Source: a virus. Taken from it: a DNA stretch of 27,656 nucleotides. The translations under genes were made by a program, and so were the position numbers. This document shows positions 10,662 through 27,656 of the stretch, piece by piece. The stretch spans positions 1 through 27,656 of the IMG/VR virus record IMGVR_UViG_3300008113_000820; one strand, 5' to 3'. The notes below the pieces were generated by a model that saw only the letters and a list, made by a program, of their open reading frames with translations, had not been told where the DNA came from and did not search any database. Every line of letters starts with the position of its first letter. Position 1 is the first letter of the stretch.

Positions 10662-10993
10662 CCGACGCAGAACTCGCAGCGGAACGGCTGGCTGCGCTGC
10701 TCGACGCCGAACGCGAGAACACCGCCCTGCGGGCCGAGGTGGAGCGACTGCGTGCCGAGGTGTCCTACCTCCGCGCGTGCGTGCCGCCGACGCGACCCAC
10801 CGACTACGGGCACGAGGTCTGGACCGCTGCGCTCCGCGCCGAGGTCGCCGCCGAGCGCGCCGCCGTGGTGGCGTACCTAGACGAAAACATGGGTCTCGAG
10901 TTCTGCGACTGTTGCGGGCAGCGATCAAACGAAATCAGCGTGATCGCCAACGCCATCGAACGCGGTGAGCACCGCCGCGAGGAGGAGCCATGA
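10658..10993 (+). CDS. Coiled-coil protein with CxxC and GEH tail
   Basis: A 111-aa protein. An N-terminal coiled coil (ENTALRAEVERLRAEVSYLR) is followed by a second helix containing ERAAVVAYL, then EFCDCCGQR, whose three Cys could bind a metal, and the tail IERGEHRREEEP. ERAAVVA and the tail are shared with the 10126 product; the regions in between are not. Coupled by ATGA at both ends. Function unknown; assembly or nucleic-acid scaffolding would be speculation. Confidence 0.75.
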   Translation: MTDAELAAERLAALLDAERENTALRAEVERLRAEVSYLRACVPPTRPTDYGHEVWTAALRAEVAAERAAVVAYLDENMGLEFCDCCGQRSNEISVIANAIERGEHRREEEP

Positions 10994-14127: not shown

Positions 14128-14621
14128 GCCGCTGGACCAGCGAAGACTACCTCCGCAACGAGACCGAGAGCGAGAACTACGAGAAGTCCATCGAGGCGTT
14201 CCTCTCGACCACCGAGTACACGACGTGGTTCGAGGAGAAGCAGGCCGAGCTCTACGCTCCGGTGCTCGCCGCGGGCATCCAGCAGACGTTGATGGCGAGC
14301 CACGAGGACCGTCGAGAGGCGGCGCGGTTCGCGCTGCGCCAGCTCGCGGCACTCGCCGAGGAGGCGCGCGAAGAGGCGGCCAAGGGCTTCGACCCCACCG
14401 AAGAGACGGTCAAGCCACCGGGCCACACCTGTCCCGCCATCGACGGCGTGCAGCACGTCCTTCGTCAGATCATCTGGCGCATGGACAACCCGGACAAGCA
14501 GACCCGCCAGGACGCACGGGACCTGCTCGTCGAGGGGCTCGCACTCCTCGAGCAGGTCCGCACCGAGAACCGCCAGATGCGTGCAGCGCACGCCGCCATG
14601 CAGAAGAAGGTCACACCATGA
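14124..14621 (+). CDS. Helical protein, unknown function
   Basis: A 165-aa protein from GTG 14124, overlapping the ATPase stop (GTGA). It is acidic at the N-terminus (TSEDYLRNETESENYEKSIE), helical throughout, with an Ala/Glu-rich helix (LRQLAALAEEAREEAAKGFD) and a C-terminal coiled-coil-like helix (LLEQVRTENRQMRAAHAAMQ). A single H/C-containing loop, GHTCPAIDGVQH, separates the halves. Coupling suggests it works with the SbcC-like ATPase. I do not recognise the family. Confidence 0.7.
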   Translation: MSRWTSEDYLRNETESENYEKSIEAFLSTTEYTTWFEEKQAELYAPVLAAGIQQTLMASHEDRREAARFALRQLAALAEEAREEAAKGFDPTEETVKPPGHTCPAIDGVQHVLRQIIWRMDNPDKQTRQDARDLLVEGLALLEQVRTENRQMRAAHAAMQKKVTP

Positions 14622-14920
14622 CCGGGAAAGCCTGGACGACCAAGAAGGTCGAGCGTGTATGGAACCGGATGCGCGCAGGCGCGAGCGCGCAGACCATCGC
14701 AGCCGAGATGGGCTGCACCGTGACGAACATCCACAAGCGGCTGCGCGGCGCCGGGTACGACCCGGAGACGGGCCGGCGCGAGGACTTCAACGACAGCGCC
14801 TGCGCCGGCTCTACATGCGGCTCGCGCGCTACTGCGAGCGGGCCGAGGTGGAGTACCCGCGGATGCCGAAGAAGCGCCGCAAGGGCAAGCGGTACAGCCC
14901 GGCTACCATCGAGTCGTTGA
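14618..14920 (+). CDS. HTH protein, probably 5' part of a frameshifted gene
   Basis: A 100-aa ORF; ATG overlaps the previous stop (ATGA). Residues ~9-48 are a good helix-turn-helix: VERVWNRMRAGASAQTIAAE, then MGCTVTNIHKRLRGAGY. After about residue 60 the translation turns into Arg/Ser/Gly/Ala-rich sequence without structure, typical of GC-rich DNA read in the wrong frame, while the -1 frame becomes codon-like (high third-position GC) and continues as the next ORF. The real product is therefore probably a fusion with 14815-15300, by indel or by programmed frameshifting near 14795-14814. Confidence 0.55.
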   Translation: MTGKAWTTKKVERVWNRMRAGASAQTIAAEMGCTVTNIHKRLRGAGYDPETGRREDFNDSACAGSTCGSRATASGPRWSTRGCRRSAARASGTARLPSSR

Positions 14921-15300
14921 TGGTGGCGGACGCCGTGGTCGCCATCAACAAGCGGATGAAGCGCGGCGAACAGACCGACGCCATCGACCTGGCTGACGCC
15001 ATAGGCTACCCGGAGCGGACAACGAAGAGCATCATCGCCGAGATGCGCCGCCGCAAGATGCTCGCAGACGGTATCGTGCCGACCGTGGGCAACCCCGAGC
15101 CAGATGATCTGATCGGGTGCGAGCGCGCGATCCTCGAGGCGGTGCGAGCGGCGTGGGCCGACAAGACGCGATCCTGCGAAACACTGACCACCCTCTGTGA
15201 GTCGACGGGCTACGCTCGCTCGACCATCAACCTCGCCATCGGGAAGCTCCGGTACCTCGGGCTCCTCGAACCACGCGGCTTCCTCTACCTGCGAGCATGA
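14815..15300 (+). CDS. Winged-helix-like protein, probably 3' part of the same gene
   Basis: A 161-aa ORF if started at ATG 14815. That start has no Shine-Dalgarno and lies 106 nt inside the previous ORF, unlike other genes here; the frame is coding-like already upstream (RLRRLYMRLARYCERAEVEY). It has a basic stretch PKKRRKGKRYS, an HTH-like IDLADAIGYPERTTKSIIAE, and a second DNA-binding-type segment LTTLCESTGYARSTINLAIG, ending in KLRYLGLLEPRGF, a winged-helix end. It could be a replication initiator or regulator, as it directly precedes the DUF927-like helicase with an ATGA overlap. No family is named with confidence. Confidence 0.6.
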   Translation: MRLARYCERAEVEYPRMPKKRRKGKRYSPATIESLMVADAVVAINKRMKRGEQTDAIDLADAIGYPERTTKSIIAEMRRRKMLADGIVPTVGNPEPDDLIGCERAILEAVRAAWADKTRSCETLTTLCESTGYARSTINLAIGKLRYLGLLEPRGFLYLRA

Positions 15301-17456
15301 CCATGAACACCGAACCAGAGTACGACGAGACCGAGAAGCGAGACGCCGTCAACGACGGACTCGACCTGCTGCGCGTCTTGCAGAACCAGCTCTCGTCCAC
15401 CGAGAAGACCAACCACCTCGCAGCGTGGGCGGCCATCCAGCGGCCGGAGGCGCTCAACGACATCGCGGCTGCGTGGGTGGCGGACGAGGCCCAGGTCACC
15501 GGCATGCTCGCCGTGATCGAGATGCTGCCGGGTCAGGTCACGCGGACCCGTGCGCTCCGCAACGCACTGAAGCGGATCGTCATCGAGAAGCGGCGTGCCG
15601 CGCTCGACCGCGTTATCGGGGTCGTGCAGGACAACACGCTCATCTCCCTCGGCATCGCCTTGGGGGCTGGCGCCCCGCCCGCATCGCTGGTCGAACCCCA
15701 GCTGCTGGACTCACTCAAGGTTCCTCGCGGCTACGCGGTGGACCCGACCGGTGTCTTCAAGCTGTCTGTCATGGCTGACGGAACGGCGGCGTCGACGCGC
15801 GTGGCGACTGCTCCTGTGTTCATCGTGGGTCGCTCCCACGACGTGCTGACCGGTGGCGCGAAGCGCGTGCTGATGTGGCGCACGCCGGCCGGGTGGACGA
15901 TGCGCCCCGTGGACCGCGGCGTCCTGATGAACAGCCAGAAGCTCATCGGCTTGGCAGACCTCGAGGTGCCCGTCACCTCGAACACCTCGGCTGCGGTGGT
16001 CGAGTGGCTCGCCGAGTTCGAGGCGGAGAACATGCACCGCTTCGGCAGCAACCAAGCGGCGAGCCGCATGGGCTGGCTGAAGCAGGGCGGGATCCACGGG
16101 TTCCTGCTGCCCGAGACGTTCTTCACGACGGCGACCAGTGAAGAGGAGAGCTGCGTGGAGCTCGTGCCGCAGGCCGGGCTCGAGGCGCTGCTCGATGGGT
16201 GGAAGCCGAGCGGGACGTGGGAAGGCTGGCTCGACGCGATGGACACCATGCGTCCGTTCACCCCGATGTGGCTCGCGCTCTACGCCTCGTGCGCGGCGCC
16301 CATGCTCGAGATCATCGGCAGCCCGTCATTCGTGGTGGACTTCAACGGTGAGACCTCGACCGGCAAGACGACGGCGATGCGCGTGGCGGCCAGCGTGTGG
16401 GGCCGCCCGTCCGACAGCATGCCGACGGCGATGTACTCGTGGGACAGCACGAAGGTGTTCATCGAGCGCATCTGCGGGTTCCTCTGCAACCTGCCGGTGA
16501 TCCTCGACGAGACGAAGCGGGCGAAGGACAAGCAGATCGTGCGCGACGTGGTGTACGACTTCGCGAACGGGCAGGGCCGCGGTCGCGGGTCGCCGGACGG
16601 CACGCGCCAAACGGCGAGCTGGCGCAGCATCATGCTCACCTCGGGCGAGGCGGCGGCCACCAGCTTCAGCCAGGACGGCGGCACCCGTGCGCGCGTGCTC
16701 TCCATCACGGGCCGGCCGATGGGCACGAACATGAAGGCGGGCGGACCGGCCGCCGAGCTTCTTGCGGCGCAGTTGCAGGAACACTACGGTCACCTCGGCC
16801 GTCGGCTCATGCACTACCTCGTGAGCGTGGCGGACCAGCACGAGGCGCTGCGTGAGGTCTGGCGCGACACGCGCGACCAGTACGCGGCGGTCGCCAAGAC
16901 CGCGGTGAGCCGGCGCCACGCCGGCAACCTCGCCACCCTGCACCTCGCCTCGACCATCGTGCACGAGAGCCTCGGCGTGCCGTACCCCGAGGAGGACCCG
17001 ATGGCGTTCGCCCTCGAGGCCGTCATGCAGATCGAGACCGAGAAGGACCGCCCGCACGCTGCGTTCATCGAGGTCATCGGCTGGTGCTCGGCGAACCAGA
17101 ACCGGTTCTGGGGTCGGCACGAGGTGGACCGCGAAGGCGCGCCGCGCGTGCCGGGCCGCGGCTGGGCGGGCTCGTGGTCGGGCGAGGACGAGTGGAAGGT
17201 CATCAGCCTCATGCCGCACGTCCTGCGTGAGGTCCTCGAGCCGATGGGCTACCACGTCGACGAGATCCTCGACCGCTGGGCGGAGCGCGGGTGGATCGTG
17301 CTGTCGGAGCGCACCTCGGCAAGCAAGTCGGCGAAGAGCCGCACGACGGTCACGCGCATCAACGGGGCGCCCATGCGCGTCTACCAGTTCAGCCGGACGT
17401 CGGTCGACAACCACGTCGCAGACGATGAGGTGATGCGTGGCAACGCCGACGTCTGA
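15297..17456 (+). CDS. DUF927-like AAA+ ATPase, probable replicative helicase
   Basis: A 719-aa protein from ATG 15297, overlapping the previous stop. The first ~200 residues are unassigned. From about residue 230 it follows the DUF927 pattern: WLAEFEAENM, then GFLLPETFF, and WLALYASCAAPMLEIIG. Walker A is GETSTGKTT (351-359) and Walker B VILDETK (D404, E405). GGTRARVLSI carries the likely arginine finger, and the C-terminus has helical extensions. DUF927 proteins in phages often occupy the place of primase-helicase. No primase catalytic motif is seen, so priming would need another protein or the host. Expected to work with the polymerase. Confidence 0.75.
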   Translation: MTMNTEPEYDETEKRDAVNDGLDLLRVLQNQLSSTEKTNHLAAWAAIQRPEALNDIAAAWVADEAQVTGMLAVIEMLPGQVTRTRALRNALKRIVIEKRRAALDRVIGVVQDNTLISLGIALGAGAPPASLVEPQLLDSLKVPRGYAVDPTGVFKLSVMADGTAASTRVATAPVFIVGRSHDVLTGGAKRVLMWRTPAGWTMRPVDRGVLMNSQKLIGLADLEVPVTSNTSAAVVEWLAEFEAENMHRFGSNQAASRMGWLKQGGIHGFLLPETFFTTATSEEESCVELVPQAGLEALLDGWKPSGTWEGWLDAMDTMRPFTPMWLALYASCAAPMLEIIGSPSFVVDFNGETSTGKTTAMRVAASVWGRPSDSMPTAMYSWDSTKVFIERICGFLCNLPVILDETKRAKDKQIVRDVVYDFANGQGRGRGSPDGTRQTASWRSIMLTSGEAAATSFSQDGGTRARVLSITGRPMGTNMKAGGPAAELLAAQLQEHYGHLGRRLMHYLVSVADQHEALREVWRDTRDQYAAVAKTAVSRRHAGNLATLHLASTIVHESLGVPYPEEDPMAFALEAVMQIETEKDRPHAAFIEVIGWCSANQNRFWGRHEVDREGAPRVPGRGWAGSWSGEDEWKVISLMPHVLREVLEPMGYHVDEILDRWAERGWIVLSERTSASKSAKSRTTVTRINGAPMRVYQFSRTSVDNHVADDEVMRGNADV

Positions 17457-18071: not shown

Positions 18072-18671
18072 ATGCCGAGAGGAGACAAGCCGGTGCAGCC
18101 CGGCCCCAGCATCAACGCTTCCAAGCTGCCATCGTCCGCGCGGACGGATCAGGACGTGGCTCCGTCGTTCGGTCCCGCGGCGTCGTCGAAGGCGCGCTCC
18201 GTGTCGGTGGCGCCGGCGGCTGAGGCCGAGGTCGTCGCGATGCTCACGGAGCAGACGAAGTTCGCGAGCGAGCCGGAGACCCGGGCGATGGCGATCCAGC
18301 TCCTGGGCGCCGGCTACACGGTGCGTGACGTGAGCCGGCGCCTCGCCGTCCGCTCGCACACGGTGTGGGGCTGGGCCGAGGAGCCAGCCGTGAAGACGGC
18401 CATCGAGAAGGGCCGGATGCTTCGGAAGCAGAGCCTCGGGCAGGAGCTCGAGGACGCAGCCGAGGCGGCGCTGGGCACGCTGATCGACCTGATGCAGGAC
18501 GAGGGCACGACCCCGAAGGACCGGCTGAAGGCGGCCGAGATCATCCTCGACCGCTGCGGGCTGGTCGAGTTGCCGACGAAGCAGGTCGCCCAGGTTGAGA
18601 CCGCGGTGCGGGTCGACGTGGACTTCGACGAGCGCCTCGCGCGCATCGTGGCGGCGAGCCGACCGGCCTGA
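18072..18671 (+). CDS. Terminase small subunit-like HTH protein
   Basis: A 199-aa protein from ATG 18072 (GAGG at 18063-18066; a GTG 6 nt earlier is less well placed). The first ~55 residues are low complexity. Residues ~65-105 hold an HTH: AIQLLGAGYTVRDVSRRLAV, then RSHTVWGWAEEPAVKTAIEK. Next is a helical part ending in PKDRLKAAEIILDRCGLVEL, an element often seen in phage terminase small subunits and related packaging proteins. No large terminase follows; instead there is a terminator and convergent genes. If the call is right, the packaging pair is split. A general HTH regulator remains possible. Confidence 0.5.
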   Translation: MPRGDKPVQPGPSINASKLPSSARTDQDVAPSFGPAASSKARSVSVAPAAEAEVVAMLTEQTKFASEPETRAMAIQLLGAGYTVRDVSRRLAVRSHTVWGWAEEPAVKTAIEKGRMLRKQSLGQELEDAAEAALGTLIDLMQDEGTTPKDRLKAAEIILDRCGLVELPTKQVAQVETAVRVDVDFDERLARIVAASRPA

Positions 18672-18720: not shown

Positions 18721-19236
18721 TCAGTCGTTGTCGCAGACGTCGGTGCCGGGAGCGAAGACGTGGAAGCCGAGTAGTTCCAGCGCGTCCGCTGTGCGGTCGA
18801 TGCAGTCGCGGTGCCGCTCCAGCCGCTCTTCGAGGTCTCGGTTCTTCGCCTCGAGCATGTGCTGCTTCTGCGTCAGCGCCTCGTTCAGAGCACGCGCCCC
18901 GATGAGCGATCCCGCGTCGCGAGCGAGGTCGTCGTTGTGCTGCTTCAGCTTGTCGACCTGCGCCTGCGCCTCCCACGCTAACTGGGTGAGCCGCTGGTTC
19001 TCCTTCGTGAGCCGCGCCACCTCGGCGTCGAGGTCACGCTCCGTCTGCTTCGCGTCCGCGAGCAGGTTGCGCAGCCCTTCGTTCGACTCGTGCAGCGACC
19101 GGATGGTGGCATCGAGGTCGGGCTGCGGCTCGGGCTGTAGTTCCGGCCTGTGCTCCAGCGTCTTCAGTCTCAGCTCCAGCGTGTTGACCCGCATGTCCAG
19201 GCGCGTCACGATGTCCTCCATGCTTCCGATGATCAT
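18721..19236 (-). CDS. Coiled-coil protein, unknown function
   Basis: A 171-aa protein starting at ATG 19236 with GGAGG upstream and an ATGA overlap with the preceding gene. After MEDIVTRLDMRVNTLELRLK it is almost entirely heptad-patterned (DLDAEVARLTKENQRLTQLA; LEAKNRDLEERLERHRDCID), a long coiled coil, ending in a short globular tail (LELLGFHVFAPG). Last gene of the operon, just before the terminator. It may be a scaffold or oligomeric adaptor; there is no specific match. Confidence 0.75.
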   Translation of the reverse strand: MIIGSMEDIVTRLDMRVNTLELRLKTLEHRPELQPEPQPDLDATIRSLHESNEGLRNLLADAKQTERDLDAEVARLTKENQRLTQLAWEAQAQVDKLKQHNDDLARDAGSLIGARALNEALTQKQHMLEAKNRDLEERLERHRDCIDRTADALELLGFHVFAPGTDVCDND

Positions 19237-19436
19237 GAGGTCCTCCAAGAGTGGACGCCCGACAGGGCGAACGTGCGGGTGCGGTCGTCTTCCTTCGCGC
19301 GGTCGAGGTCGACCGCATCCATGAGCCACTGCGGGCCGGGATGCCACGACACCTCGCCGAAGTAGAACCGGACAGGCCGGATGCGCCGCTGCCGGCGCTC
19401 GCCTCGCCAGTTCGTGTAGTCGATGGTCACGTTCAT
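19233..19436 (-). CDS. Small WYL-like domain protein
   Basis: A 67-aa protein. Start ATG 19436 with GGAGAACCATCCC upstream, and a stop overlapping the next start. It opens VTIDYTNWRGERRQRRIRPV, then FYFG, SWHPGPQWLMDAVDLDRAK and RTFALSGVHSW. This order matches the stand-alone small proteins, widespread in phages and plasmids, that resemble the WYL ligand-sensing domain (strand, NWRGE, IxPxxxxFG, W-P--QW, A-D, FAL--I-SW). No DNA-binding domain is attached. It may bind a nucleic acid or nucleotide ligand; the role is unproven. Confidence 0.7.
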   Translation of the reverse strand: MNVTIDYTNWRGERRQRRIRPVRFYFGEVSWHPGPQWLMDAVDLDRAKEDDRTRTFALSGVHSWRTS

Positions 19437-19699
19437 GGGATGGTTCTCCGGGGCGGGATGATGTCCTCGACGAAGACCGCCGGGGCCGATGGTCCGTGCG
19501 GTGCGCGGGTCGGGACGTAGGTGCAGGAGATGGCGCTCGCCCGGTGGTAGCAGGACACGCCGTCCTCGTAGTCGACCCGGATGGTCTCGTTGGCGAGCAG
19601 CACACGCGGGTCGACCTTCTCGCCGCACGACATGGGAAGGCTGGCGAGGACCAGCAGCAGACCGACGATCAGCGCGACGCTATGCCAGGTTGAAGTCAT
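19433..19699 (-). CDS. Small exported or membrane-anchored protein
   Basis: An 88-aa protein from ATG 19699, overlapping the upstream gene by 20 nt. The N-terminus MTSTWHSVALIVGLLLVLAS followed by LPMSCGEK is a signal peptide or single membrane helix; the Cys resembles a lipoprotein site, but the preceding residues (P-M-S) do not fit the normal lipobox. The exported part has two more Cys (GVSCYHR, AISCTYV) that could form a disulfide. Function unknown; an envelope role such as superinfection exclusion is only a guess. Confidence 0.65.
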   Translation of the reverse strand: MTSTWHSVALIVGLLLVLASLPMSCGEKVDPRVLLANETIRVDYEDGVSCYHRASAISCTYVPTRAPHGPSAPAVFVEDIIPPRRTIP

Positions 19700-20114
19700 C
19701 GCACTCCTCCGTCCGGCTCCACGAGAACGACTGCCAGTCGCGTGCCTCGGGGTCGTGCAGCGCAGCACCGAGCCACGCCAGCGAGATGTCCATCAGCTCG
19801 GACGCGGCCGCCCCGTCGCCCGTCATGCTGCGCTCCTCGAGCGCCTCGGCACGCAGGGCCTCGGTCTCGGGCACCTTGACGTCGACGTCCACGGAGATGC
19901 GGACCCACGTCGTGTCGCCCTCGCGCCGGGCGGCGCGCTGCCGGCTGTCGATGAGGTCGGCGAGGGCGCGCAGCGTGGACGCCAGCGCCTCGCGGTCGTC
20001 CCGGCCGGAGCGGGTCACGGTTGCTCCGCTGTCGATGCCGGGCAGCGTCAACGTCGCCACGGCGCGGTTGTCGTTCGAGGTCAACGAGATGGTCACGGGC
20101 TCGCGGGTCTTCAT
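19680..20114 (-). CDS. Unknown small protein
   Basis: A 144-aa protein; start ATG 20114, GGAGACCATTC upstream, ATGA overlap with the micro-ORF before it. The N-terminal half is beta-rich (VTISLTSNDNRAVATLTLPG) followed by a helix (REALASTLRALADLIDSRQR) and another strand (TWVRISVDVDVKVP). The C-terminal half is acidic and helical. A 'VTLTI strand then long helix' layout also appears in the products at 22319 and 22770, perhaps a shared fold. Not recognised. Confidence 0.7.
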   Translation of the reverse strand: MKTREPVTISLTSNDNRAVATLTLPGIDSGATVTRSGRDDREALASTLRALADLIDSRQRAARREGDTTWVRISVDVDVKVPETEALRAEALEERSMTGDGAAASELMDISLAWLGAALHDPEARDWQSFSWSRTEECDDFNLA

Positions 20115-20236
20115 GAATGGTCTCCGTTGCAGCCAGCGCGGCAGCAGTACTTGCAGGGTGGGTTGAGGTAAGCCATCGCGCAGGGGATGACCCAGATGAA
20201 CACGTAACGGCAGAGGAACAGGAACAGGAAGGTCAT
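20111..20236 (-). CDS. 41-aa Cys-rich micro membrane protein
   Basis: ATG 20236 has GGGAGG 5 nt upstream (20242-20247). ATGA overlaps join it to the genes on both sides, strong support for a real gene. The peptide is one hydrophobic helix (TFLFLFLCRYVFIWVIPCAM) followed by a tail with five Cys in 12 residues, PPCKYCCRAGCNGD. A membrane anchor with a metal-binding or palmitoylation-like Cys tail is suggested by appearance only. No family is known to me. Confidence 0.65.
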   Translation of the reverse strand: MTFLFLFLCRYVFIWVIPCAMAYLNPPCKYCCRAGCNGDHS

Positions 20237-20394
20237 GCTCGACCTCCCACGAGGATGAAGGCGACGCCGCCGCACGACAGGCAGAAGGCGCTGGCGGCGG
20301 GCTCGGGCATGGCGACGTACACGACGAAGATGGCGGTGGCAGCCACCGTGAGGAAGGCAGCGATAGCTCCCTGGGCGAGGCGGTCGTCGTTCAT
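20233..20394 (-). CDS. Small two-helix membrane protein
   Basis: A 53-aa protein from ATG 20394, chosen over an ATG seven codons upstream because GGAGACCACA sits just before it. Two hydrophobic segments, AIAAFLTVAATAIFVVYVAM and FCLSCGGVAFILVGG, are joined by a short Pro/Glu loop, a likely hairpin in the membrane. ATGA overlap with the next gene. A holin-like role is conceivable from topology but nothing lysis-related is adjacent. Confidence 0.65.
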   Translation of the reverse strand: MNDDRLAQGAIAAFLTVAATAIFVVYVAMPEPAASAFCLSCGGVAFILVGGRA

Positions 20395-20430
20395 TGTGGT
20401 CTCCTGCTGTGGCATGTGTTGCGCGGCGTG

Positions 20431-20658
20431 TTACGGCAGAGCCGTCGGGGGGACTGCGTGTTCTTCATTCTTCGGCACCAACGTGTCGAAGATGCCGACG
20501 TAGAGGAGCGCCGTCTCGATGCCGCTGATGTGGCCAGCGGCGTGAAGGTTGCCCGCCTCGGCGAGCGGCTTCATGAGCTCGATGCGCTCGCGCAGGGTCG
20601 TGCGGACGAAGTCGAGGTGATGAGTGATCTTGTGGATGATGGTCTCGGACTCGGTCAT
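20431..20658 (-). CDS. Small helical protein, first gene of the operon
   Basis: A 75-aa protein; ATG 20658 preceded by GGAGACCACGCC, the identical unit used at 25881. It is mainly helical (ETIIHKITHHLDFVRTTLRE, RIELMKPLAEAGNLHAAGHI) with several His. First gene after the 20678-20706 promoter. No recognised family. The gap to the next gene (20395-20430) holds only its ribosome site. Confidence 0.7.
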   Translation of the reverse strand: MTESETIIHKITHHLDFVRTTLRERIELMKPLAEAGNLHAAGHISGIETALLYVGIFDTLVPKNEEHAVPPTALP

Positions 20659-20677
20659 GGCGTGGTCTCCGGGTGTA

Positions 20678-20706
20678 CTGTTAGCAGCGCGGTAAGGTAT
20701 CGTCAA
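20678..20706 (-). promoter_or_regulatory. Leftward promoter of the 20658-18721 operon
   Basis: Minus strand: TTGACG (20706-20701), 17 nt, TAACAG (20683-20678); start expected near 20671. The plus strand of the spacer reads CGGTAAGGTAT, also found in the 9773 promoter spacer. Confidence 0.65.
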
Positions 20707-20786
20707 GCGGGCGGGAAACATCCGCTGCCGGTCTGCTGACGGGCAGCCGATGGCTCTCGTCCACCAGCGACGATGGAGAGGGGAGA

Positions 20787-20856
20787 GTGACCCGGCTCGA
20801 CCTGTGCGCACCCCGAGAAGCAATGGAAGAGGGGCAGGCACAGGGAGCCGGGTCAC
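20787..20856 (-). other. Large hairpin downstream of the DUF932-like gene (terminator candidate)
   Basis: GTGACCCGGCTC (20787-20798) pairs fully with GAGCCGGGTCAC (20845-20856). CCTGTGC (20801-20807) pairs with GCACAGG (20838-20844), and CCCC (20811-20814) with GGGG (20831-20834), around a 16-nt loop. It begins 8 nt past the stop of the leftward gene. There is no T-run, so it may be a terminator of unusual type, a 3' stabiliser or a small RNA. The rest of 20707-20863 shows nothing else. Confidence 0.55.
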
Positions 20857-20863
20857 CGAGGGG

Positions 20864-22288
20864 TCACGCCTCGGCGGCGCGGTTGGCGAGGACGGGGAGC
20901 AGCGAGCCGGCGGCGCGCTCGACGCGCCAGCGCTGCGCCTCGTCGAGCATGCCGTCGTGGGCGGCACGGGTCACGGCGTTGAAGATGTCGGCGAGGGTCT
21001 CGCCGGGCTCGACGTCGAAGCCGCGGAGGAGCGCCTCGACCATCACGTCGCGGCCCACGTCGGCGTCGAGGTCGCCGCTGCTCACGAGGTTGCGGAGGAA
21101 CACCTTGGGGTCGGCGATCCGGCCCACCTTGGTGATGGGGGTCTCACGCAGGGTGCCCCACGCGTCGATGAAGAACCGGGCGGCGTCGCCGGTGCGGCTC
21201 ACGAGGTCGCCGACGTCCTGCTGGACCTTGGCGAGGCCCTGCGCGGTCAGGTCCGACACCCGGCTGCCCTTGTGGACCCGGCGCAGGCTCTCGTTGCCGA
21301 AGTCGCCGGTCGTGCAGTTGATGCAGATGATGCGGGTGAAGGTGTTGCCGCCACGGTGGGCGCCGTTGCCGGCGTCGTTCGTGCGGCCGGTGATGCCGCT
21401 CTCGAACACGTCGCCGACGCTGGGCCGGAACGACACCGGCGCGTGCCACGTCGCCCGGATGGTGACGTCGGTGGTCTCACCGTTGTAGGCGATGGCCCCG
21501 CGCGGGTCGGGCAGACCCAGGGCGTCGAGGGTCTCGACGTAGGCACCGAGGACGCGGTCGGCGTCCATCGGCATGTACGTCGGGCTCACCGCGGCGAAGG
21601 CGCGCCAGCCGCCCACGTTGCGCAGGCGCAGCCGGAGGTTGCGCTCGTCGTCGGAGTACCACTCCGAGAGCCGGGAGAGTTGCGCGTTGACGGCCTCGGC
21701 GCGGGCGGCCGGGTCGAGCAGGGCGAGGAACGACCACGCGTTCGGGAACGCCTTGGGGAAGCGCCCGATGATGCCCTTCAGCGCGTTCGGCTCGAGGGCG
21801 ATGTCACCCTTGCCGCGGGTGAGCGTGCCCTCGGGGGTGAGGCGCAGGGCGCGGGCGTCACCGAGGACCATGTCGCGCCGGTCCTCGGCGCGGATCACGT
21901 CGATGACCTCGGCCGCCGCGTCGCGGAAGACGGGCAGGTCCTCGTGCCGCTTGGCGAGGGAGCCGAACTTGGCGCGCCCCTCGGGGAGCATCTCCGTGCC
22001 GGCGGCGAACCACGTCGGCGGCGGCGCGAAGCCGCGCGCCTTGAGGAACGCCTCGGCCGCGGCGATGCGCTTCGCGGCCTCGGGGTCGACGTCCACGCCG
22101 GGGCGGAGCGTGACCGGCTGCGGCGCGGGGACCTCGGCCACGTCGACGGGCACGAGGGTGCCGACGAAGCCGGCCTGGGCGTAGGCCCGCATGACCTCCT
22201 CGCGCGGGCCCTCGACGGGCTCGACGTCGGGGCGGCGCCAGCGGAGGCGGGCGGGGAGATCGGTGGTGTTGTTGGTGTCGGTGTTCAT
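20864..22288 (-). CDS. DUF932-like phage/plasmid protein
   Basis: A 474-aa protein; ATG 22288 with AGGAGAACACGACC upstream. The C-terminal two thirds look like the DUF932 family common in phages and plasmids: VGGWRAFAAVSPTYMPMDAD, RPSVGDVFESGITGRTND, FTRIICINCTTG and RRVHKGS follow its order of a substrate-like beta core and a C[TN]N[GC] strand. The N-terminal ~130 residues are Pro/Ala-rich and variable. The family function is not established; it is often found beside replication or anti-defence genes. By far the largest gene of the leftward block and last in its operon. Confidence 0.6.
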   Translation of the reverse strand: MNTDTNNTTDLPARLRWRRPDVEPVEGPREEVMRAYAQAGFVGTLVPVDVAEVPAPQPVTLRPGVDVDPEAAKRIAAAEAFLKARGFAPPPTWFAAGTEMLPEGRAKFGSLAKRHEDLPVFRDAAAEVIDVIRAEDRRDMVLGDARALRLTPEGTLTRGKGDIALEPNALKGIIGRFPKAFPNAWSFLALLDPAARAEAVNAQLSRLSEWYSDDERNLRLRLRNVGGWRAFAAVSPTYMPMDADRVLGAYVETLDALGLPDPRGAIAYNGETTDVTIRATWHAPVSFRPSVGDVFESGITGRTNDAGNGAHRGGNTFTRIICINCTTGDFGNESLRRVHKGSRVSDLTAQGLAKVQQDVGDLVSRTGDAARFFIDAWGTLRETPITKVGRIADPKVFLRNLVSSGDLDADVGRDVMVEALLRGFDVEPGETLADIFNAVTRAAHDGMLDEAQRWRVERAAGSLLPVLANRAAEA

Positions 22289-22757
22289 GGTCGTGTTCTC
22301 CTGGGTGGTGTGGGTGGACTAGACGGGGTCGATGCGGGTGAGGGTTGCACCCACGGGCGCGGTCTTCTCGGCTGTGCGGATCGCTTCGCTGGCGTCGAGC
22401 GCGAGTACGGTGCCGGGTGTGCTGTAGACCACCTTGAAGGTCCGGTACGCGCCGACGACGAAGGAACCCGACAGGTCGCCTTCGTCATAGAGGTGGCGCT
22501 GGAGCAGGTCGACGAGCGCCGTGGTGTCGAGGGCAGGCCCATCAATGGTCAGCGTGACGTTGGTACGCTGATCCTCGACGAAGACGCGGGCGAAGCGGTA
22601 GCCGACGAGGTGCGGTACCTCGCGAGCGGCAAGCGCGAACTCCGCGGCGAACTGCGCGAAGGCGCGGTGCCCACCGAGGATCTCGCCTTCGGCGTCGGTG
22701 ATCTCGGTGTAGTCGAGTGCGATCTCGTAGCTGTTCATGGTCGTGTTCTCCTGGGTG
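22281..22757. repeat. Duplicated gene-start unit (22284-22308 and 22734-22758)
   Basis: On the minus strand, about 25 identical bases (CACCCAGGAGAACACGACC then ATGAAC) precede and include the starts of the genes at 22288 and 22738. The genes are unrelated beyond their first two codons, so the ribosome-binding region was copied on its own. Confidence 0.7.
22319..22738 (-). CDS. Unknown protein
   Basis: A 139-aa protein; ATG 22738 with AGGAGAACACGACC upstream. Alternating strands and helices: MNSYEIALDYTEI, a helix HRAFAQFAAEFALAARE, a strand pair RFARVFVEDQRTNVTLTIDG, a helix TTALVDLLQRHLY, and strands FKVVYSTPG. An alpha/beta sandwich is likely. No motif identifies it. Middle gene of the 23555-20864 operon. 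Confidence 0.7.
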   Translation of the reverse strand: MNSYEIALDYTEITDAEGEILGGHRAFAQFAAEFALAAREVPHLVGYRFARVFVEDQRTNVTLTIDGPALDTTALVDLLQRHLYDEGDLSGSFVVGAYRTFKVVYSTPGTVLALDASEAIRTAEKTAPVGATLTRIDPV

Positions 22758-22769
22758 TGGTCGGTCGGG

Positions 22770-23048
22770 TCAGACGGCGCGCAGCCAGACCGGGCGGTTG
22801 GCGGCGATGTAGTCGAGGGTGAACTTGTCGAGGGTCAGCGCGTAGTCGAGGTCGGTCTCCCGCCAGTCGATCTCGGCGTACTTGGCGGAGAACGCGAGCA
22901 CGATGCTCTTTACGAGGTCGAGGACGTCGTCCCGGTTCTCGACGGCGTCCCACGCGATGTGGGGCGCGATGGTGAGGGTGACCTCGGCCGTGGTCTCGAA
23001 GTCTACGGCGATGCTGGTGTTCCAGCGGGGCAGGTAGCGGGTGTCCAT
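22770..23048 (-). CDS. Unknown protein
   Basis: A 92-aa protein from ATG 23048, AGGAGCCCGACCAC upstream. Strands SIAVDFETTAEVTLTIAPHI, a helix DDVLDLVKSIVLAFSAKYAE, a strand LDYALTLDKFTLDYI. The strand-helix-strand plan resembles the neighbouring 22319 product and the 19680 product, though sequence similarity is weak. Not recognised. Confidence 0.7.
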   Translation of the reverse strand: MDTRYLPRWNTSIAVDFETTAEVTLTIAPHIAWDAVENRDDVLDLVKSIVLAFSAKYAEIDWRETDLDYALTLDKFTLDYIAANRPVWLRAV

Positions 23049-23060
23049 GTGGTCGGGCTC

Positions 23061-23555
23061 CTAGTAGACGGTGATGCGGGCGCCGGCGAGGGGGATGCGG
23101 ACCGGCTCGCCGCGGAAGTCGTTGTCACGCTCGGGCTGCGTTTCGTCGTAGCGGTTGCCGACGAGGAACACGGGGAAGTCGAGGTCGTGGTCGCCCTGCT
23201 CGAAGTGGTCGACGACGACGTCGTCGATGAGCCGGTCGAGCCCGTCCTCGGATGCGTACTCGACCCGGACGACCCAGCCGGGGCGCAGCCCGAGGACGGC
23301 GTTCACGGTGTCGAGGTCCGGCCCCTCGCACGAGAAGCCCAGGCTGAAGTCGAACCAGCGGCCCGGCTCGCGGTCGCCGGAGAGCATGGAGCCCGGCGGG
23401 TGGTTCGTCGCCTCGCGGTCGAGGTCACGGGCCGCCTGAAGGAGGCGGGCGAGGTTACCGTCCATGCCGGCCTCCTCGCGGAGGTCCTCGTCGACGGTGT
23501 TGTAGGTGCGGAACGCGTCGCGGGCCACGATGGCGCGCAGGGTGTCGAGGTGCAT
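23061..23555 (-). CDS. Unknown acidic protein, first gene of the operon
   Basis: A 164-aa protein; start ATG 23555 after CGGAGAAGCACACC. Helical N-terminus (LDTLRAIVARDAFRTYNTVD, NLARLLQAARDLDREATN), then a strongly acidic, beta-rich C-terminal part (WVVRVEYASEDGLDRLIDDV, DHDLDFPVFLVGN). High Asp/Glu raises the possibility of a DNA-mimic or anti-defence protein, but there is no direct evidence. Confidence 0.7.
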   Translation of the reverse strand: MHLDTLRAIVARDAFRTYNTVDEDLREEAGMDGNLARLLQAARDLDREATNHPPGSMLSGDREPGRWFDFSLGFSCEGPDLDTVNAVLGLRPGWVVRVEYASEDGLDRLIDDVVVDHFEQGDHDLDFPVFLVGNRYDETQPERDNDFRGEPVRIPLAGARITVY

Positions 23556-23581
23556 GGTGTGCTTCTCCGGGGTGGTGCAGT

Positions 23582-23610
23582 CTACTATGCCGGGGTGGTA
23601 TGGGTGTCAA
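23582..23610 (-). promoter_or_regulatory. Leftward promoter of the 23555-20864 operon
   Basis: Minus strand: TTGACA (23610-23605), 17 nt, TAGTAG (23587-23582). The predicted start near 23575 gives a 20-nt leader. Best -35 match in the leftward block. Confidence 0.7.
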
Positions 23611-23651
23611 GGCGAGCCGGGTATATTCCCGGCGGCCGGTCAGAAGGGGTC
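23606..23651. repeat. 46-bp duplicated boundary element, copy 1
   Basis: Matches 24584-24629 at 39 of 46 positions, in the same orientation. It spans the -35 box of the promoter, an inverted repeat GCCGGG-TATATT-CCCGGC (23616-23633), and the last codons (ADPF, stop) of a gene end. Confidence 0.75.
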
Positions 23652-23723
23652 AGCCCCCGCCGTGTCGGCGGTCCACAGGGCGGCCGCCGCGGCGCACGCC
23701 GCCGCGACGCCGGACTTGGCGCA
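23640..23723 (-). pseudogene. Remnant C-terminus of a paralogue of the 24618 gene
   Basis: The frame directly after the TAG of the 23724 gene encodes 27 residues (CAKSGVAAACAAAAALWTAD, then TAGADPF) ending in TGA at 23640. They align without gaps to the last 27 residues of the 24618-24926 product (16 identical, including LWTA and ADPF). It has no start codon of its own. It is either a leftover of a replaced gene or a readthrough extension of 23724-23960. Confidence 0.6.
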
Positions 23724-23960
23724 CTAGGGCAGGGGGTTCTCGGCCTCGTTCACGTCGTCGTTGTCGTTCTCCATTGTTGGTTCGTCTCCTTCGAGCAGTT
23801 GCTTCAGGTTGTCCCCTTCCATGCCGGGGCTCATGGTGATCTTGCTGGCGATGGGTGCCAGACACATCAGACACAGGTCCATGCCGGTCCACGAGTCACG
23901 GAAGGTCCGTTCCTCGTAGCCGTGACAGTTGCTGCACTCGTCTGCGAGCGTGAGCATCAT
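23724..23960 (-). CDS. Zinc-ribbon small protein
   Basis: A 78-aa protein from ATG 23960 (overlapping the previous stop; GGAGTACATCCC upstream; a second ATG follows immediately). Two CxxC pairs, CSNCHG and LCLMC, about 20 residues apart, form a classical zinc ribbon at residues ~9-33. The remainder is acidic (LLEGDEPTMENDNDDVNEAE). It could be a transcription-related or nucleic-acid-binding regulator. It ends in TAG, with an in-frame extension beyond (see remnant at 23640). Confidence 0.75.
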   Translation of the reverse strand: MMLTLADECSNCHGYEERTFRDSWTGMDLCLMCLAPIASKITMSPGMEGDNLKQLLEGDEPTMENDNDDVNEAENPLP

Positions 23961-24517
23961 GGGATGTACTCCGGGTCAATGAGGACGCCGATGCGGTCGA
24001 CCTCGACGTAGCAGGCGCGGACGAGGTCGTGGTCGAAGCCGTGGTCGCTGTTCGCCGCGGCTTCCTCGAAGAGGCGGGCGGCGATGCGCCACGCTTCGAG
24101 GGCGCGTGCCCGCCACAGGTTGACGGTGACGATGGGCGCGCCGTCGTCGGTCGCGCGCTCGGCCATGCGCTCGCAGTCGCGGCCGTGGTACATGGCGACG
24201 TCGGCCGCCGCGCGCAGGTTGGCGGCCTTCATGGCTGCGACGATGGCCGCCGCGATGCTGTCGGTGTCGTCCGGGCTGAGCCGGTCGGCGACCTCGCCGA
24301 CGTCGACAATGTCGCCCTCGTCGTCACGCCACACGATGGACACGGCCACCCTGATCACGCCGTCGTCCTCGTCGAGGTAGACGTTGGCCACGACGTCGCC
24401 GTAGGCGACCTCGGCGCTGGGGTTGTCGGCGGACGTGTCGCCGCACTCGATATGCCCCTCGCCGACGTGGCGGGCTCCAATGGCGACCGCGATGCGGTCG
24501 GCTACGGTCTCGATCAT
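23957..24517 (-). CDS. Unknown protein, first gene of the operon
   Basis: A 186-aa protein; ATG 24517 with CGGAGAGAAGC upstream. The N-terminal half is beta-rich and acidic (YGDVVANVYLDEDDGVIRVA, VSIVWRDDEGDIVDVGEVAD); the C-terminal half is helical (AAAIVAAMKAANLRAAADVA; RARALEAWRIAARLFEEAAA). The helices resemble the Ala-rich helical segments of the 24618 and 24951 products. Not recognised. Confidence 0.7.
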   Translation of the reverse strand: MIETVADRIAVAIGARHVGEGHIECGDTSADNPSAEVAYGDVVANVYLDEDDGVIRVAVSIVWRDDEGDIVDVGEVADRLSPDDTDSIAAAIVAAMKAANLRAAADVAMYHGRDCERMAERATDDGAPIVTVNLWRARALEAWRIAARLFEEAAANSDHGFDHDLVRACYVEVDRIGVLIDPEYIP

Positions 24518-24556
24518 GCTTCTCTCCGGTTGAATGGCGGCTGTCCGCCGGGTGAT

Positions 24557-24574
24557 GCCCCGGTATACCGGGGC
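24557..24574. promoter_or_regulatory. 18-bp perfect palindrome, operator candidate
   Basis: GCCCCGGTATACCGGGGC is perfectly symmetrical and covers the -10 box of the leftward promoter. The half-site CCGGTA/TACCGG also forms the inverted repeat in the 6473 promoter (6486-6501), suggesting one regulator acts on both. Confidence 0.5.
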
Positions 24575-24588
24575 GGTTCGGTCGTCAA
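24560..24588 (-). promoter_or_regulatory. Leftward promoter of the 24517-23724 operon
   Basis: Minus strand: TTGACG (24588-24583), 17 nt, TACCGG (24565-24560). Predicted start near 24553. Confidence 0.65.
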
Positions 24589-24629
24589 GGGTGGCCGGCG
24601 ATATTCCCGGCCGCCGGTCAGAACGGGTC
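24584..24629. repeat. 46-bp duplicated boundary element, copy 2
   Basis: Counterpart of 23606-23651. It contains the -35 box, an inverted repeat GGCCGG (24593-24598) and CCGGCC (24607-24612), and the last codons and stop of the 24618 gene. The inverted repeat may act as a boundary hairpin between leftward operons. Confidence 0.75.
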
Positions 24630-24926
24630 CGCGCTCGAAGCGGTGGCGGTCCACAGCGTAGCCGCGGCGGAGCGCGCAGCGGACGCACCGGCCGACGCGC
24701 AGCGGCGCGCCTCGGCGAGGTTGTCGAGGGCGGCCCAGCGCTCGGCCGCCTCGGCCCACAGGGTGGCGCTCTCGATGTAGGCGGCTCCGGCGAGGCGCAG
24801 GCGCCCGTCCTGGGTGTCGCGGTCGCCCGCCTCGGCGGCGTCGACGGCGCGAGCTTCGAGCCACGTCGCCTCGGCCTCGCGGACGTCGGCGTGGTCGGCG
24901 GGGGTGTGATGCAGGGTGATCGGCAT
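24618..24926 (-). CDS. Ala-rich helical protein, unknown function
   Basis: A 102-aa protein from ATG 24926; the ribosome site is weak (AGGA about 18 nt upstream). Almost all helical, with repeated A/E-rich helices (EAEATWLEARAVDAAEAGDR; AYIESATLWAEAAERWAALD), like a TPR-type or four-helix bundle. Its last 27 residues are echoed by the remnant at 23640. The 24951 and 25238 products share the helix style (AATLRRAAET, YLRAADAMRNAVQQYINAA), perhaps a local family. Last gene of its operon. Confidence 0.65.
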   Translation of the reverse strand: MPITLHHTPADHADVREAEATWLEARAVDAAEAGDRDTQDGRLRLAGAAYIESATLWAEAAERWAALDNLAEARRCASAGASAARSAAATLWTATASSADPF

Positions 24927-24950
24927 GGTGGGTCTGGCGTCGAGGTCCTG

Positions 24951-25238
24951 CTAGGTGGTGAGCCCGGTGGCCCAGCGGTCGCGGTGGTCGGCGGCCCGGG
25001 TGAACAGGTCGGCGTGGTCGAGGTCGGCCTGTCCGCCGCCCTCGGTCTCCGCGGCGCGCCGCAGGGTGGCGGCGGCCTCGCGGAGCAGGGTGGCGGAGCG
25101 CCTGTACTGGATGCACGCGTGCATGTAGTTGCCGGCGCGCTCGTAGTCCTCGGCGGCCCAGTCGGCGCGGATGCTCTGGTTCTCCAGACCCTGCGCGTCG
25201 GCGCGCAGTCGGTCGGCGGGGGTGAGGTAGGGGTCCAT
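24951..25238 (-). CDS. Helical protein, unknown function
   Basis: A 95-aa protein starting at ATG 25238, which overlaps the previous stop by one base (TGATG). Helices RADWAAEDYERAGNYMHACI, QYRRSATLLREAAATLRRAA and HADLFTRAADHRDRW resemble MIT/TPR-like bundles, and 'YRRSATLLREAA' parallels the neighbours. Function unknown. Confidence 0.65.
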   Translation of the reverse strand: MDPYLTPADRLRADAQGLENQSIRADWAAEDYERAGNYMHACIQYRRSATLLREAAATLRRAAETEGGGQADLDHADLFTRAADHRDRWATGLTT

Positions 25239-25555
25239 CACGCACCCCCGAAGGTGGGCGCCACTGCCAACAGGTCGAGGTCGTACGCCTCGCGGCAGCA
25301 CTGGAGCGCGGCCGCGGTGTCCTCTGGCGTGCCGCCGCGGACGCCCGCCGCGTTGATGTACTGCTGCACTGCGTTGCGCATGGCGTCCGCGGCTCGCAGG
25401 TAGGCGGTCCGCGCCGCGATGGTGGAGCCGGCGCTCACGGCGTCGGCGGCGCGGCGCGCCTCTTTACGGCTCTCCCGTCGGGCGGTGGCGGCGTGCCACC
25501 GATGCTCGGCGGCGGGGGTGCCGTCGGTCAGCCGCAGGGTCTGGTCGGTCGTCAT
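25238..25555 (-). CDS. Helical protein, unknown function
   Basis: A 105-aa protein from ATG 25555, overlapping the previous stop (ATGA). A basic helix (HRWHAATARRESRKEARRAA) is followed by an Ala-rich bundle (TAYLRAADAMRNAVQQYINA) and a Cys-containing helix (AALQCCREAYDLDLLAVAP). Similar in style to the two genes after it; together they may be diverged duplicates. Not recognised. Confidence 0.65.
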   Translation of the reverse strand: MTTDQTLRLTDGTPAAEHRWHAATARRESRKEARRAADAVSAGSTIAARTAYLRAADAMRNAVQQYINAAGVRGGTPEDTAAALQCCREAYDLDLLAVAPTFGGA

Positions 25556-25881
25556 GCCGCACCCCCGACGTCGGCGACGCAGCGGTCGAACATGCCGCGG
25601 GCGAGGTCGCGCACCGCGGGGTCCTCGGCGAGCGCTTCGAGGCGCTTGCGGCTGTAGCGGGCGGCCGCTTCGAGGCGCATGCGGTAGCCGCGGTGCGGGC
25701 TGTAGCACTCGACGGTGTAGCCGTCGCCCCGCTCGAACGTGAGGGGCTGGACGTGGAGCGTGTAGGCGCGCTCCCCGCGCTCCAGCCCGAGGGTCGGGTA
25801 GCGCACGGTGACCCGCACGGTCTCCCCGTTGGGCAGGTCCCACAGGGCGACGTGGATGTAGCGTGGCTCGGCGGTCTTCAT
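25552..25881 (-). CDS. Unknown protein
   Basis: A 109-aa protein; ATG 25881 with AAGGAGACCACGCC upstream, the same 15-nt start unit as at 20658. The first half is beta-rich (RYIHVALWDLPNGETVRVTV, AYTLHVQPLTFERGDGYTVE), and the second is a basic helix region (YRMRLEAAARYSRKRLEALA). ATGA overlap with the next gene. No family recognised. Confidence 0.7.
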   Translation of the reverse strand: MKTAEPRYIHVALWDLPNGETVRVTVRYPTLGLERGERAYTLHVQPLTFERGDGYTVECYSPHRGYRMRLEAAARYSRKRLEALAEDPAVRDLARGMFDRCVADVGGAA

Positions 25882-26117
25882 GGCGTGGTCTCCTTCGTCG
25901 TGGTGAAGCGGTAGCCGCCGTGCGGCACGATGATAGCGCTGGCGTCGTGGAAGTCGGCGAGCCCCAGCCGGGCGGCGAGGGCGCGGGCGACGCGCTCGTG
26001 GGCGAGGTACCCGCCCGCGGCGCCGCGCTCGGTGTGGCGGACGCCGTCGACGGTGACGGTCGCGGTGACCGTCGCCTCGCCGCGCCGGGGGTAACGGGCA
26101 CGGGTGCGGATGATCAC
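25878..26117 (-). CDS. Small protein, double-stranded-RNA-binding-like layout, unknown
   Basis: A 79-aa protein from GTG 26117, overlapping the previous stop (GTGA). Strands TVTATVTVDGVRHTERGAAG, a helix AHERVARALAARLGLADFHD, then a strand IIVPHGGYRFTTTK. The start strands, turn and Ala-rich helix give a small alpha/beta fold; any nucleic-acid-binding link is a guess from layout. Second gene of its operon. Confidence 0.65.
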   Translation of the reverse strand: MIIRTRARYPRRGEATVTATVTVDGVRHTERGAAGGYLAHERVARALAARLGLADFHDASAIIVPHGGYRFTTTKETTP

Positions 26118-26332
26118 AGCATCCCCCCGTTCTCGATCCGCTCGGCGATCCGCTCGGCGAGCCGCTCGGTGGTCTCGTGGTCGAGGTCTACCTCGACGTC
26201 TTCACCCGTCACCGGGTCGCCCATCACCACGCGCTCGATGGTGACCCACAGGCTCCCATCCTCGCGCTCGGTCGTGAACCACACACCGTAGTCGGTGCCG
26301 GTCACGGTGTCGCATACGTCAGTCTCGCGCAT
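26114..26332 (-). CDS. Small acidic protein, first gene of the operon
   Basis: A 72-aa protein; ATG 26332 with GGGAGAGCGAGCG upstream. Strands YGVWFTTEREDGSLWVTIER and EDVEVDLDHETTE, then a helix RLAERIAERIENGG made of the near-repeat RLAERIAERI. No promoter with the usual 17-nt spacing was found upstream; the palindrome TTGACGCGTCAA (26385-26396) is 53 nt away. Not recognised. Confidence 0.7.
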   Translation of the reverse strand: MRETDVCDTVTGTDYGVWFTTEREDGSLWVTIERVVMGDPVTGEDVEVDLDHETTERLAERIAERIENGGML

Positions 26333-26609
26333 CGCTCGCTCTCCCGGGCCGTGGGGTGTAGCGTCGACGGGCGGCCCTCTCCCGTTGACGCGTCAATGCT
26401 TGCCGTGGCGGTTGCCGTCGAGGGGCTGGGCGCTAAAGGCCCGCCGCGCCTCGGTTATCGGCTAACCCCTTGAAGTTTAACGGGTAACGGGCGCGCCCAC
26501 CGGGGATGCGCGCCCCGCCTATGTTGTCGGGGCGTTACGCGTTACGCGGCCGTCACGTAGAGTTACATGCGAGGGCCCGTATGTGTATCGGATATTGCGT
26601 AAACGGGTG

Positions 26610-26656
26610 AACATAGAGCGTATGTATAGTGTGTGTAACGTGTAACGCTCTATGTT
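26610..26656. repeat. 12-bp perfect inverted repeat
   Basis: AACATAGAGCGT (26610-26621) and ACGCTCTATGTT (26645-26656) with a 23-nt AT-rich spacer that contains one of the GTGTAAC tandem repeats. It is the strongest inverted repeat of the non-coding region; protein binding or cruciform formation is possible. Confidence 0.7.
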
Positions 26657-26803
26657 GTACGTTTGCATGTTGCCGTAAGCACAGGGGAAAGGCGTTACCG
26701 CAGCCACGGTCAACCGTTTGGTTAAGACACCGTGGTATAGGCGCGCCCGTTCGTGGGCCTAGCCCCGCATCCATGCAGCGGGGTACGTCGGCGTTGCCGA
26801 TGC

Positions 26804-26825
26804 GGCGGCCTAGGCGGGGGCCGCC
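26804..26825 (-). terminator. Possible terminator after the right-edge gene
   Basis: GGCGGCC (26804-26810) and GGCCGCC (26819-26825) form a 7-bp stem 10 nt past the leftward stop. A second stem CCCCGC/GCGGGG follows at 26763-26783. Neither has a T-run. Confidence 0.3.
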
Positions 26826-26834
26826 TTCCCGTGG

Positions 26835-27656
26835 CTAGCGAGCAGCCTCGCGAGCCGCTCGCATACGGTCGACCATCGCCGTGGCCGCGGGACACGCGGC
26901 GTCCGCACGCTTGCGGGCAGCGGAGCCTAGCGCGCCGTGCATGGCGAGGTAGTAGCCGCGGCGCTTCGCGCCCTTCGCGGTGCCGTTGCAGCCACCACAA
27001 TGCTCGCAGGATACGTCGGCCGCCTCTGACAGGCAGAGCCGAAGGCCGGCCGCCGCGTAGGCTGCGTCGTCGGCCTTGCTTCGGGACGCCACGAAGGGAC
27101 GCCAGCCGCGCGCCTCTGCCTCTGCCACGTCGGCGGGGCTGCCGCACGACGCCATGAACAGGGCCGCCCACTCCGCGGGCAGGTTGCGCCACTCCGCGGT
27201 GTAGCCGGTGTGAGACTTCGTGCCGATCAGCACGGTCTGCCAGACATGGAACGGGACCGCGGATGGGTCGCCTTCCATGCCGATACGGACCTTCGCTCCC
27301 GTGAACAGCCCTGCCGGGATGCCAACGATACCGTCGGCCGCCCGTCGTGCAGCCGAAGCGTGCGCTTCACCGAGGCGCGCCTTATTGACGTAGCAGGTCC
27401 CGGCGCCGCCACGAATGACGGACCGGTGCGGGCACGCTTCGGGGCACACGGCGCCATCGGCGCCGGCCTTCCACGCGTCCATCGGCGACATATCGGCGCG
27501 CATGATGCTCACTTGCACCATATCGCCCGTCTTCCGGTTGTCGCTTGGGTCCGCGACGCAGTGCGCCGTGACCATGATCGGCGTCCCGTCAAGCCGGCTA
27601 GCGCCGGTCCAGAGGACGACCGTGGACGGGAGCGGTCCCCGTCCTAGGATGCTGCG
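26835..27656 (-). CDS. Cys-rich phage/plasmid protein of unknown function, 5' end beyond the window
   Basis: The frame stays open from the TAG at 26835 to the right edge (273 codons plus stop). ATG 27575 would give 246 aa, but the upstream in-frame sequence (STVVLWTGASRLDGTPIMVT) reads as real protein with no ribosome site before the ATG, so the start is probably outside. It contains NRKTGDMVQVSIMRADMSPM, DAWKAGADGAVCPEACPHRS, VRIGMEGDPSAVPFHVW and SCEHCGGC, the pattern of a conserved family on phages and plasmids with a Cys-x-x-Cys-type N-terminal cluster. No enzymatic function is established that I know of. It faces the candidate origin region. Confidence 0.75.
   Translation of the reverse strand, partial: RSILGRGPLPSTVVLWTGASRLDGTPIMVTAHCVADPSDNRKTGDMVQVSIMRADMSPMDAWKAGADGAVCPEACPHRSVIRGGAGTCYVNKARLGEAHASAARRAADGIVGIPAGLFTGAKVRIGMEGDPSAVPFHVWQTVLIGTKSHTGYTAEWRNLPAEWAALFMASCGSPADVAEAEARGWRPFVASRSKADDAAYAAAGLRLCLSEAADVSCEHCGGCNGTAKGAKRRGYYLAMHGALGSAARKRADAACPAATAMVDRMRAAREAAR

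Follow-up and report, generated by a model that had tools for sequence, protein, structure and literature searches.

A probable replication origin with iterons arranged around an AT-rich core in an uncultured tailed phage encoding a DUF927 helicase

The stretch of DNA analysed here (27,656 nt; hereafter, the window) comprises bases 1-27656 of an uncultured virus record of 28,527 nt and ends at a run of Ns (27657-27670). The last 114 nt of the window (27543-27656) recur exactly after this run, at 27671-27784, which is probably a scaffold-gap artefact. A near-identical relative of 67 kb, IMGVR_UViG_3300044612_002737 (hereafter, G001), starts at window position 26315 and meets the window with its far end at 22087, so that the two records together form a ring or a permuted genome of about 71.4 kb. 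Given that G001 encodes the terminase large subunit, a portal/adaptor protein and the major head protein, the element represented by the window is a tailed phage.

The + strand of the window carries a replication module that consists of a helicase, an exonuclease, a Sak4-like annealing protein, a family A DNA polymerase and a DUF927 helicase (Table 1). The polymerase ORF (6609-9776) shows an N-terminal match to the uracil-DNA-glycosylase superfamily (PF03167, 1.4e-6), and near-identical direct repeats of 22-39 nt span consecutive small overlapping ORFs at 10291-10993, a stretch that differs markedly between relatives and changes fast. The HTH gene that precedes the DUF927 helicase gene is split over two frames in the window (14057-15300), owing to a frameshift or an assembly error, and is a single 255-aa gene in G001. 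Genes in the window were called with our own codon-usage script. On the - strand, a 7.6-kb operon runs leftward; searches with reading frames from this region yielded few or spurious relatives, one of the queries being a + strand ORF opposite - strand genes. The non-coding gap that is the subject of this analysis lies directly upstream of the operon.

Table 1 Coordinates of the features discussed in the text (window numbering)
Feature	Coordinates	Strand	Basis or remarks
DUF927 helicase, relative of SaPI Rep/Cch, presumed initiator	15297..17456	+	PF06048 1.1e-42; PF18662 (Cch HTH) 7.7e-6
C-terminal winged-helix domain, presumed iteron reader	17046..17453	+	AlphaFold2 model and PDB match
Leftward operon, mostly small genes	18721..26332	-	Gene calls; first gene abuts the gap
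Non-coding region with probable origin (the gap)	26333..26834		502 nt; ~96% identical in G001
TTGACGCGTCAA, -35-like, perhaps part of a leftward promoter	26384..26395 (approx.)		Lacks a good -10 at the usual distance
Iteron pair TTAACGG-GTAAC, first copy degenerate	26477..26488	+	Left outer site: GTAAC at 26484
Iteron pair, GTTAC at 26534 and 26541	26533..26545	-	Left inner site: 26534
AT-rich core, presumed melting site	26546..26641		50% GC vs 68.6% in the window
Single iteron GTTAC	26562..26566	-	Identical 21-nt spacing in G004
Perfect 12-bp inverted repeat, 23-nt loop	26610..26656		Window and G001 only
Iteron pair, GTAAC at 26635 and 26642	26635..26646	+	Right inner site: 26642
Iteron GTTAC, right outer site	26694..26698	-	

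The gap is the largest between called genes in the window, all others spanning at most 205 nt. Its GC content is 63.5%, compared to 68.6% for the whole window, and drops to 50% in the core (26541-26642), inside which the most AT-rich 100 nt of the window begin, at 26579. The search of the gap against Rfam yielded no matches. The window contains just three TAACNNNTAAC pairs, at 26478-26488 (+), 26534-26544 (-) and 26636-26646 (+), against an expectation of 0.02, and none of 100 dinucleotide shuffles reached three; they are also the sole occurrences in the 67-kb G001. Seven copies of GTAAC/GTTAC are found in the gap, as against 1.9 in its dinucleotide shuffles, only 2 of 3000 of which reached seven. 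The arms of the inverted repeat, AACATAGAGCGT (26610-26621) and ACGCTCTATGTT (26645-26656), pair perfectly; among 3000 shuffles of the gap, 12 contain a perfect 12-bp pair of this kind within 60 nt. A second perfect 12-bp pair is formed by AACGGGCGCGCC (26486-26497) and GGCGCGCCCGTT (26740-26751), and GGTTATCGGCTAACC is located at 26453-26467. The first-pass annotation had described the gap accurately in these respects: the AT-richer, gene-free stretch of about 500 bp in an otherwise packed genome, the three heptamer pairs with a TAAC core, the 12-bp inverted repeat and the -35 palindrome are all there.

Among the close relatives, it is the iterons that are conserved. In the syntenic gap of three genomes (G004, G005 and G006) with DUF927 proteins 85, 81 and 73% identical to that of the window, respectively, identity at the sites amounts to 90, 82 and 61%, compared to 41, 45 and 38% for the DNA between the sites. 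The site spacing of the window, 50-7-21-73-7, recurs as 49-7-21-73-7 in G004. The best conserved element is the left inner pair, of which GCGTTACGCGTTACG is retained in G005 and G006. When words were ranked without preselection, GTAAC/GTTAC or CGTTA/TAACG, which overlaps it, came first or nearly first by enrichment in most of the gaps of these relatives, and the consensus of 54 sites is YGTAACG, which is not palindromic. We also considered the 12-bp inverted repeat as the key element, but it is absent beyond G001, being lost from G004-G006, whereas the TAAC sites are kept.

The search with the DUF927 alignment identified 37 further loci (44-51% identity), and we examined 29 phage records with a relative of the DUF927 helicase, each read whole, using p<0.01 as the significance threshold. 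A significant GTAAC cluster was detected in 24 of these 29 records (in 21 of 26 lineages at 90% identity), and GTAAC had the highest combined score among all pentamers. There is a single cluster per genome, the next best 500 nt being weaker; in the genome of the window, the sites are likewise confined to one cluster, and the next best 500 nt hold 2. Typically, 3-12 kb separate the cluster from the helicase gene upstream of it (measured around the ring in some genomes); in the window, the distance is 9.0 kb. The context of the cluster varies: upstream of the leftward operon in the clade of the window, just upstream of a TerS-like gene in about 10 genomes and elsewhere in the others. Among the clusters with at least 5 sites, 18 of 26 fall within the top 5% most AT-rich places of the respective genome. 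G007 has no recognisable GTAAC cluster, and G011, G021 and G030 have few or variant sites despite their similar DUF927 proteins (GATAAC-like in G011 and, by eye, GYAACGAC in G021). The five loci that were fetched without a DUF927 gene in view contain no strong cluster, although Rey L011 has 5 sites (p 0.03), and the search of genome_contigs for DUF927 relatives gave one remote match, which lacks a cluster.

To the right of the window, a different repeat is found, namely, 12-13 copies of GCTAG/CTAGC (many of them GCTAGC) within 500 nt (G000 27725-28225, equivalent to 1284-1784 of the G001 locus L006). This pentamer cluster is stronger than that of GTAAC and extends into a gap of 934 nt that precedes the phrog_2554 gene; a long imperfect palindrome (76% over ~100 nt) that resembles a terminator lies at the opposite end of this gap (L006 2179-2275).

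The maps of the GTAAC sites reveal a symmetric layout: an outer site, about 50 nt, an inner site, an AT-rich core of 106-123 nt, the second inner site, about 50 nt and the second outer site, with alternating orientation. The version of the window reads 26484 > 50 < 108 > 52 < 26694 (inner sites at 26534 and 26642), and its further sites are mostly 7 nt away from these four. The strict four-site set is present in 9 of the 29 records, compared to 0.41 expected from shuffles, a figure that flatters the layout because its limits were set after the maps had been seen; it is missing from 15 of the 24 records in which the cluster is significant and, in the closest clade, occurs only in the window and G012. 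G004 misses the fourth site, with a degenerate GTTAT roughly where it is expected. G028 is a cleaner test of the layout than this count: here, the same arrangement is made of GAAAC, which ranked first in an unprompted scan of all pentamers. In G028, the sites have thus switched as a group, which is what reading by a single protein would lead one to expect.

In cultured phages with helicases just 23-29% identical to that of the window, we also checked the DNA directly behind the DUF927 gene. Thermoanaerobacterium phage THSA-485A carries 12 GTAAC copies directly behind the helicase gene (p 1.8e-13), and phiRg507T2_3, AC844P1 and Roseburia phage Jekyll carry 7, 6 and 6, respectively; FP_Epona has 11 copies of GAAAC in this position, mostly inside GGTGAAAC, and Pseudomonas phage Rollin has no array behind its DUF927 gene. 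The arrays in THSA-485A (L171 10771-11135, GGTAACCGA), FP_Epona (L172 13253-13579, GGTGAAAC) and phiRg507T2_3 (L173 7770-7980, GTAACAA) are unannotated and are candidate origins. With the exception of FP_Epona, the arrays of the cultured Firmicutes phages share the GTAAC core pentamer with the window, and they similarly surround an AT-rich stretch, but they adjoin the gene of a helicase that is only remotely similar. The link between GTAAC-type iterons and this helicase thus extends far beyond the relatives of the window.

In a sequence comparison with the PDB, the DUF927 helicase matches SaPI Rep (8tch, 4.2e-29) and SCCmec Cch (5dgk, 6.1e-14). The full-length AlphaFold2 model is poor (pLDDT 51.8), and we modelled the C-terminal domain instead: the last 136 residues, aligned over 38 relatives, are predicted to form a winged helix (pLDDT 88.6, pTM 0.80), and structural comparison with the PDB gave SaPIbov1 Rep as the best match (8tch; E 4e-4, prob 1.00, TM 0.61). 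The C-terminal domain of SaPI Rep reads iterons (PMC7581432). A change in the wing from an RVVR-type motif to RTLR in G028, examined after the fact, is a hint at most. Two binders had been proposed at the outset, the HTH protein encoded at 14815-15300 and the DUF927 helicase; we favour the helicase and set the HTH protein aside given that no homologue of it could be detected in the 20 more distant genomes, the majority of which contain the cluster. A small HTH protein (9-332, -) is common to most genomes and may be a candidate second binder; the DNA immediately upstream of its gene contains no GTAAC.

The gap had also been put forward as the best candidate for a replication origin, and this proposal is supported by the recurrence of the cluster in 24 of 29 records, its mostly AT-rich surroundings, its partial symmetry and the arrays behind the helicase genes of cultured phages. 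The gap is probably a replication origin, with iterons around an AT-rich core, that is read and loaded by the DUF927 helicase. We infer the following course of events. The C-terminal winged helix of the helicase, the gene of which is 9 kb away, would read the YGTAACG iterons that are symmetric about the core (outer 26484, inner 26534, inner 26642, outer 26694); two helicase rings would assemble, one on each half of the site set; the AT-rich core would melt; and the rings would load face to face, leading to theta-type replication, as proposed for SaPI/PICI Rep.

Several other roles of the gap have to be weighed against this one. The repeats could bind a phage regulator that switches the leftward operon, making the gap an operator/promoter control region. 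This would fit the location of the gap directly upstream of the operon and the leftward, -35-like promoter sites that most close relatives have 50-90 nt ahead of the operon; the sigma-70 promoter scan of the whole window called none. We nevertheless consider such a role unlikely: in the wider family, the cluster sits upstream of the TerS-like gene or elsewhere, and the first genes of the operon are absent from most relatives; in the window, a distance of ~90-300 nt separates the sites from the -35-like element, which is downstream of them and does not overlap them; the sites are not clustered anywhere else in the genome; and the arrays of the cultured phages are found right behind the helicase gene. 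The gap may still act as the master control region suggested in the first-pass annotation, in view of the promoter-like sites that recur next to the operon.

It is still less probable, in our estimate, that the gap is a pac/cos packaging site read by the TerS-like protein (18093-18671). The gene of this protein, which contains an HTH, is common to nearly all relatives and in about 10 of them has the cluster just upstream, but in the remaining family, including the window, the cluster is kilobases away from it. Moreover, the recognition-helix region of the TerS-like protein is nearly identical in the GAAAC and GTAAC phages, for which reason we also rejected this protein as the binder of the iterons, and to our knowledge, no pac site is known in which short iterons flank an AT-rich core. 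Plasmid iteron arrays also serve partition and copy-control roles, so that the gap might be a centromere or incompatibility site of a plasmid-like prophage; among the subset of proteins screened against Pfam and PHROGs, there is no ParA/ParB-type protein, and the AT-rich core and the link to the helicase suit an origin better, which makes this the most improbable of the readings considered here.

GC skew, one of the checks proposed in the first-pass annotation, which named a skew minimum elsewhere among the refuting outcomes, speaks against the origin reading: the cumulative minimum is elsewhere (window ~5 kb), and the gap is near the maximum. The skew is weak (amplitude ~800 across 71 kb), and gene order could account for it.

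We lean slightly towards a broader conclusion, namely, that this family of uncultured ~70-kb phages shares a SaPI/PICI-type origin that is detached from the initiator gene and found in varied contexts, with the four-site geometry kept in many members and an iteron word that can be swapped wholesale (GTAAC to GAAAC). If this is the case, the swap exposes natural changes of initiator specificity. The GTAAC and GAAAC phages that share the layout lend themselves, as a natural pair, to tests of how a self-loading helicase recognises its origin. Origins are seldom identified in uncultured phages.

Comparison with known systems places the gap closest to the origins of satellite elements. In the lambda-type origin, the iterons are inside the initiator gene, whereas the single GTAAC cluster of the window is intergenic; the stoperators of Cluster A mycobacteriophages are repressor sites spread genome-wide, whereas the sites of the window are confined to one cluster; and iteron plasmid origins (RepA/Rep_3 type) combine a Rep_3-type initiator with iterons of ~20 bp, compared to 5-7 nt in the window, where no Rep_3 match was found among the subset of proteins screened. 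SCCmec Cch (PDB 5dgk) belongs to the same DUF927 helicase family. The putative origin of SCCmec Cch2, with its three AAGTG iterons, resembles that of the window in having 5-nt iterons and a C-terminal-domain reader (predicted in the window), but Cch2 is a helicase of another family, its site is directly downstream of its gene, and the window differs in iteron sequence, the greater number of sites and the symmetric layout. In PICI origins, two iteron sets flank an AT-rich region (PMC6092414), and in both SaPIs and PICIs, the origin is directly behind the rep/helicase gene (PMC7581432, PMC6092414). The window encodes a DUF927/SaPI-Rep-type AAA+ helicase with a C-terminal winged helix, the predicted DNA-binding domain, as does SaPIbov1 (Rep, 8tch). 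Unlike the SaPI/PICI origin, immediately 3' of rep, the gap follows the helicase gene at a distance of 9.0 kb (in the relatives, 3-12 kb for the most part), and it is set apart from the members of that class on account of this position; in the cultured Firmicutes phages, the array does lie next to the helicase gene. Furthermore, PICIs are satellites that rely on a helper phage, whereas the element studied here is a phage of ~71 kb that itself provides the genes for terminase, portal and capsid. The gap is thus very probably the replication origin; its parts and layout follow the SaPI/PICI type, but it is detached from the initiator gene and resides in a full phage.
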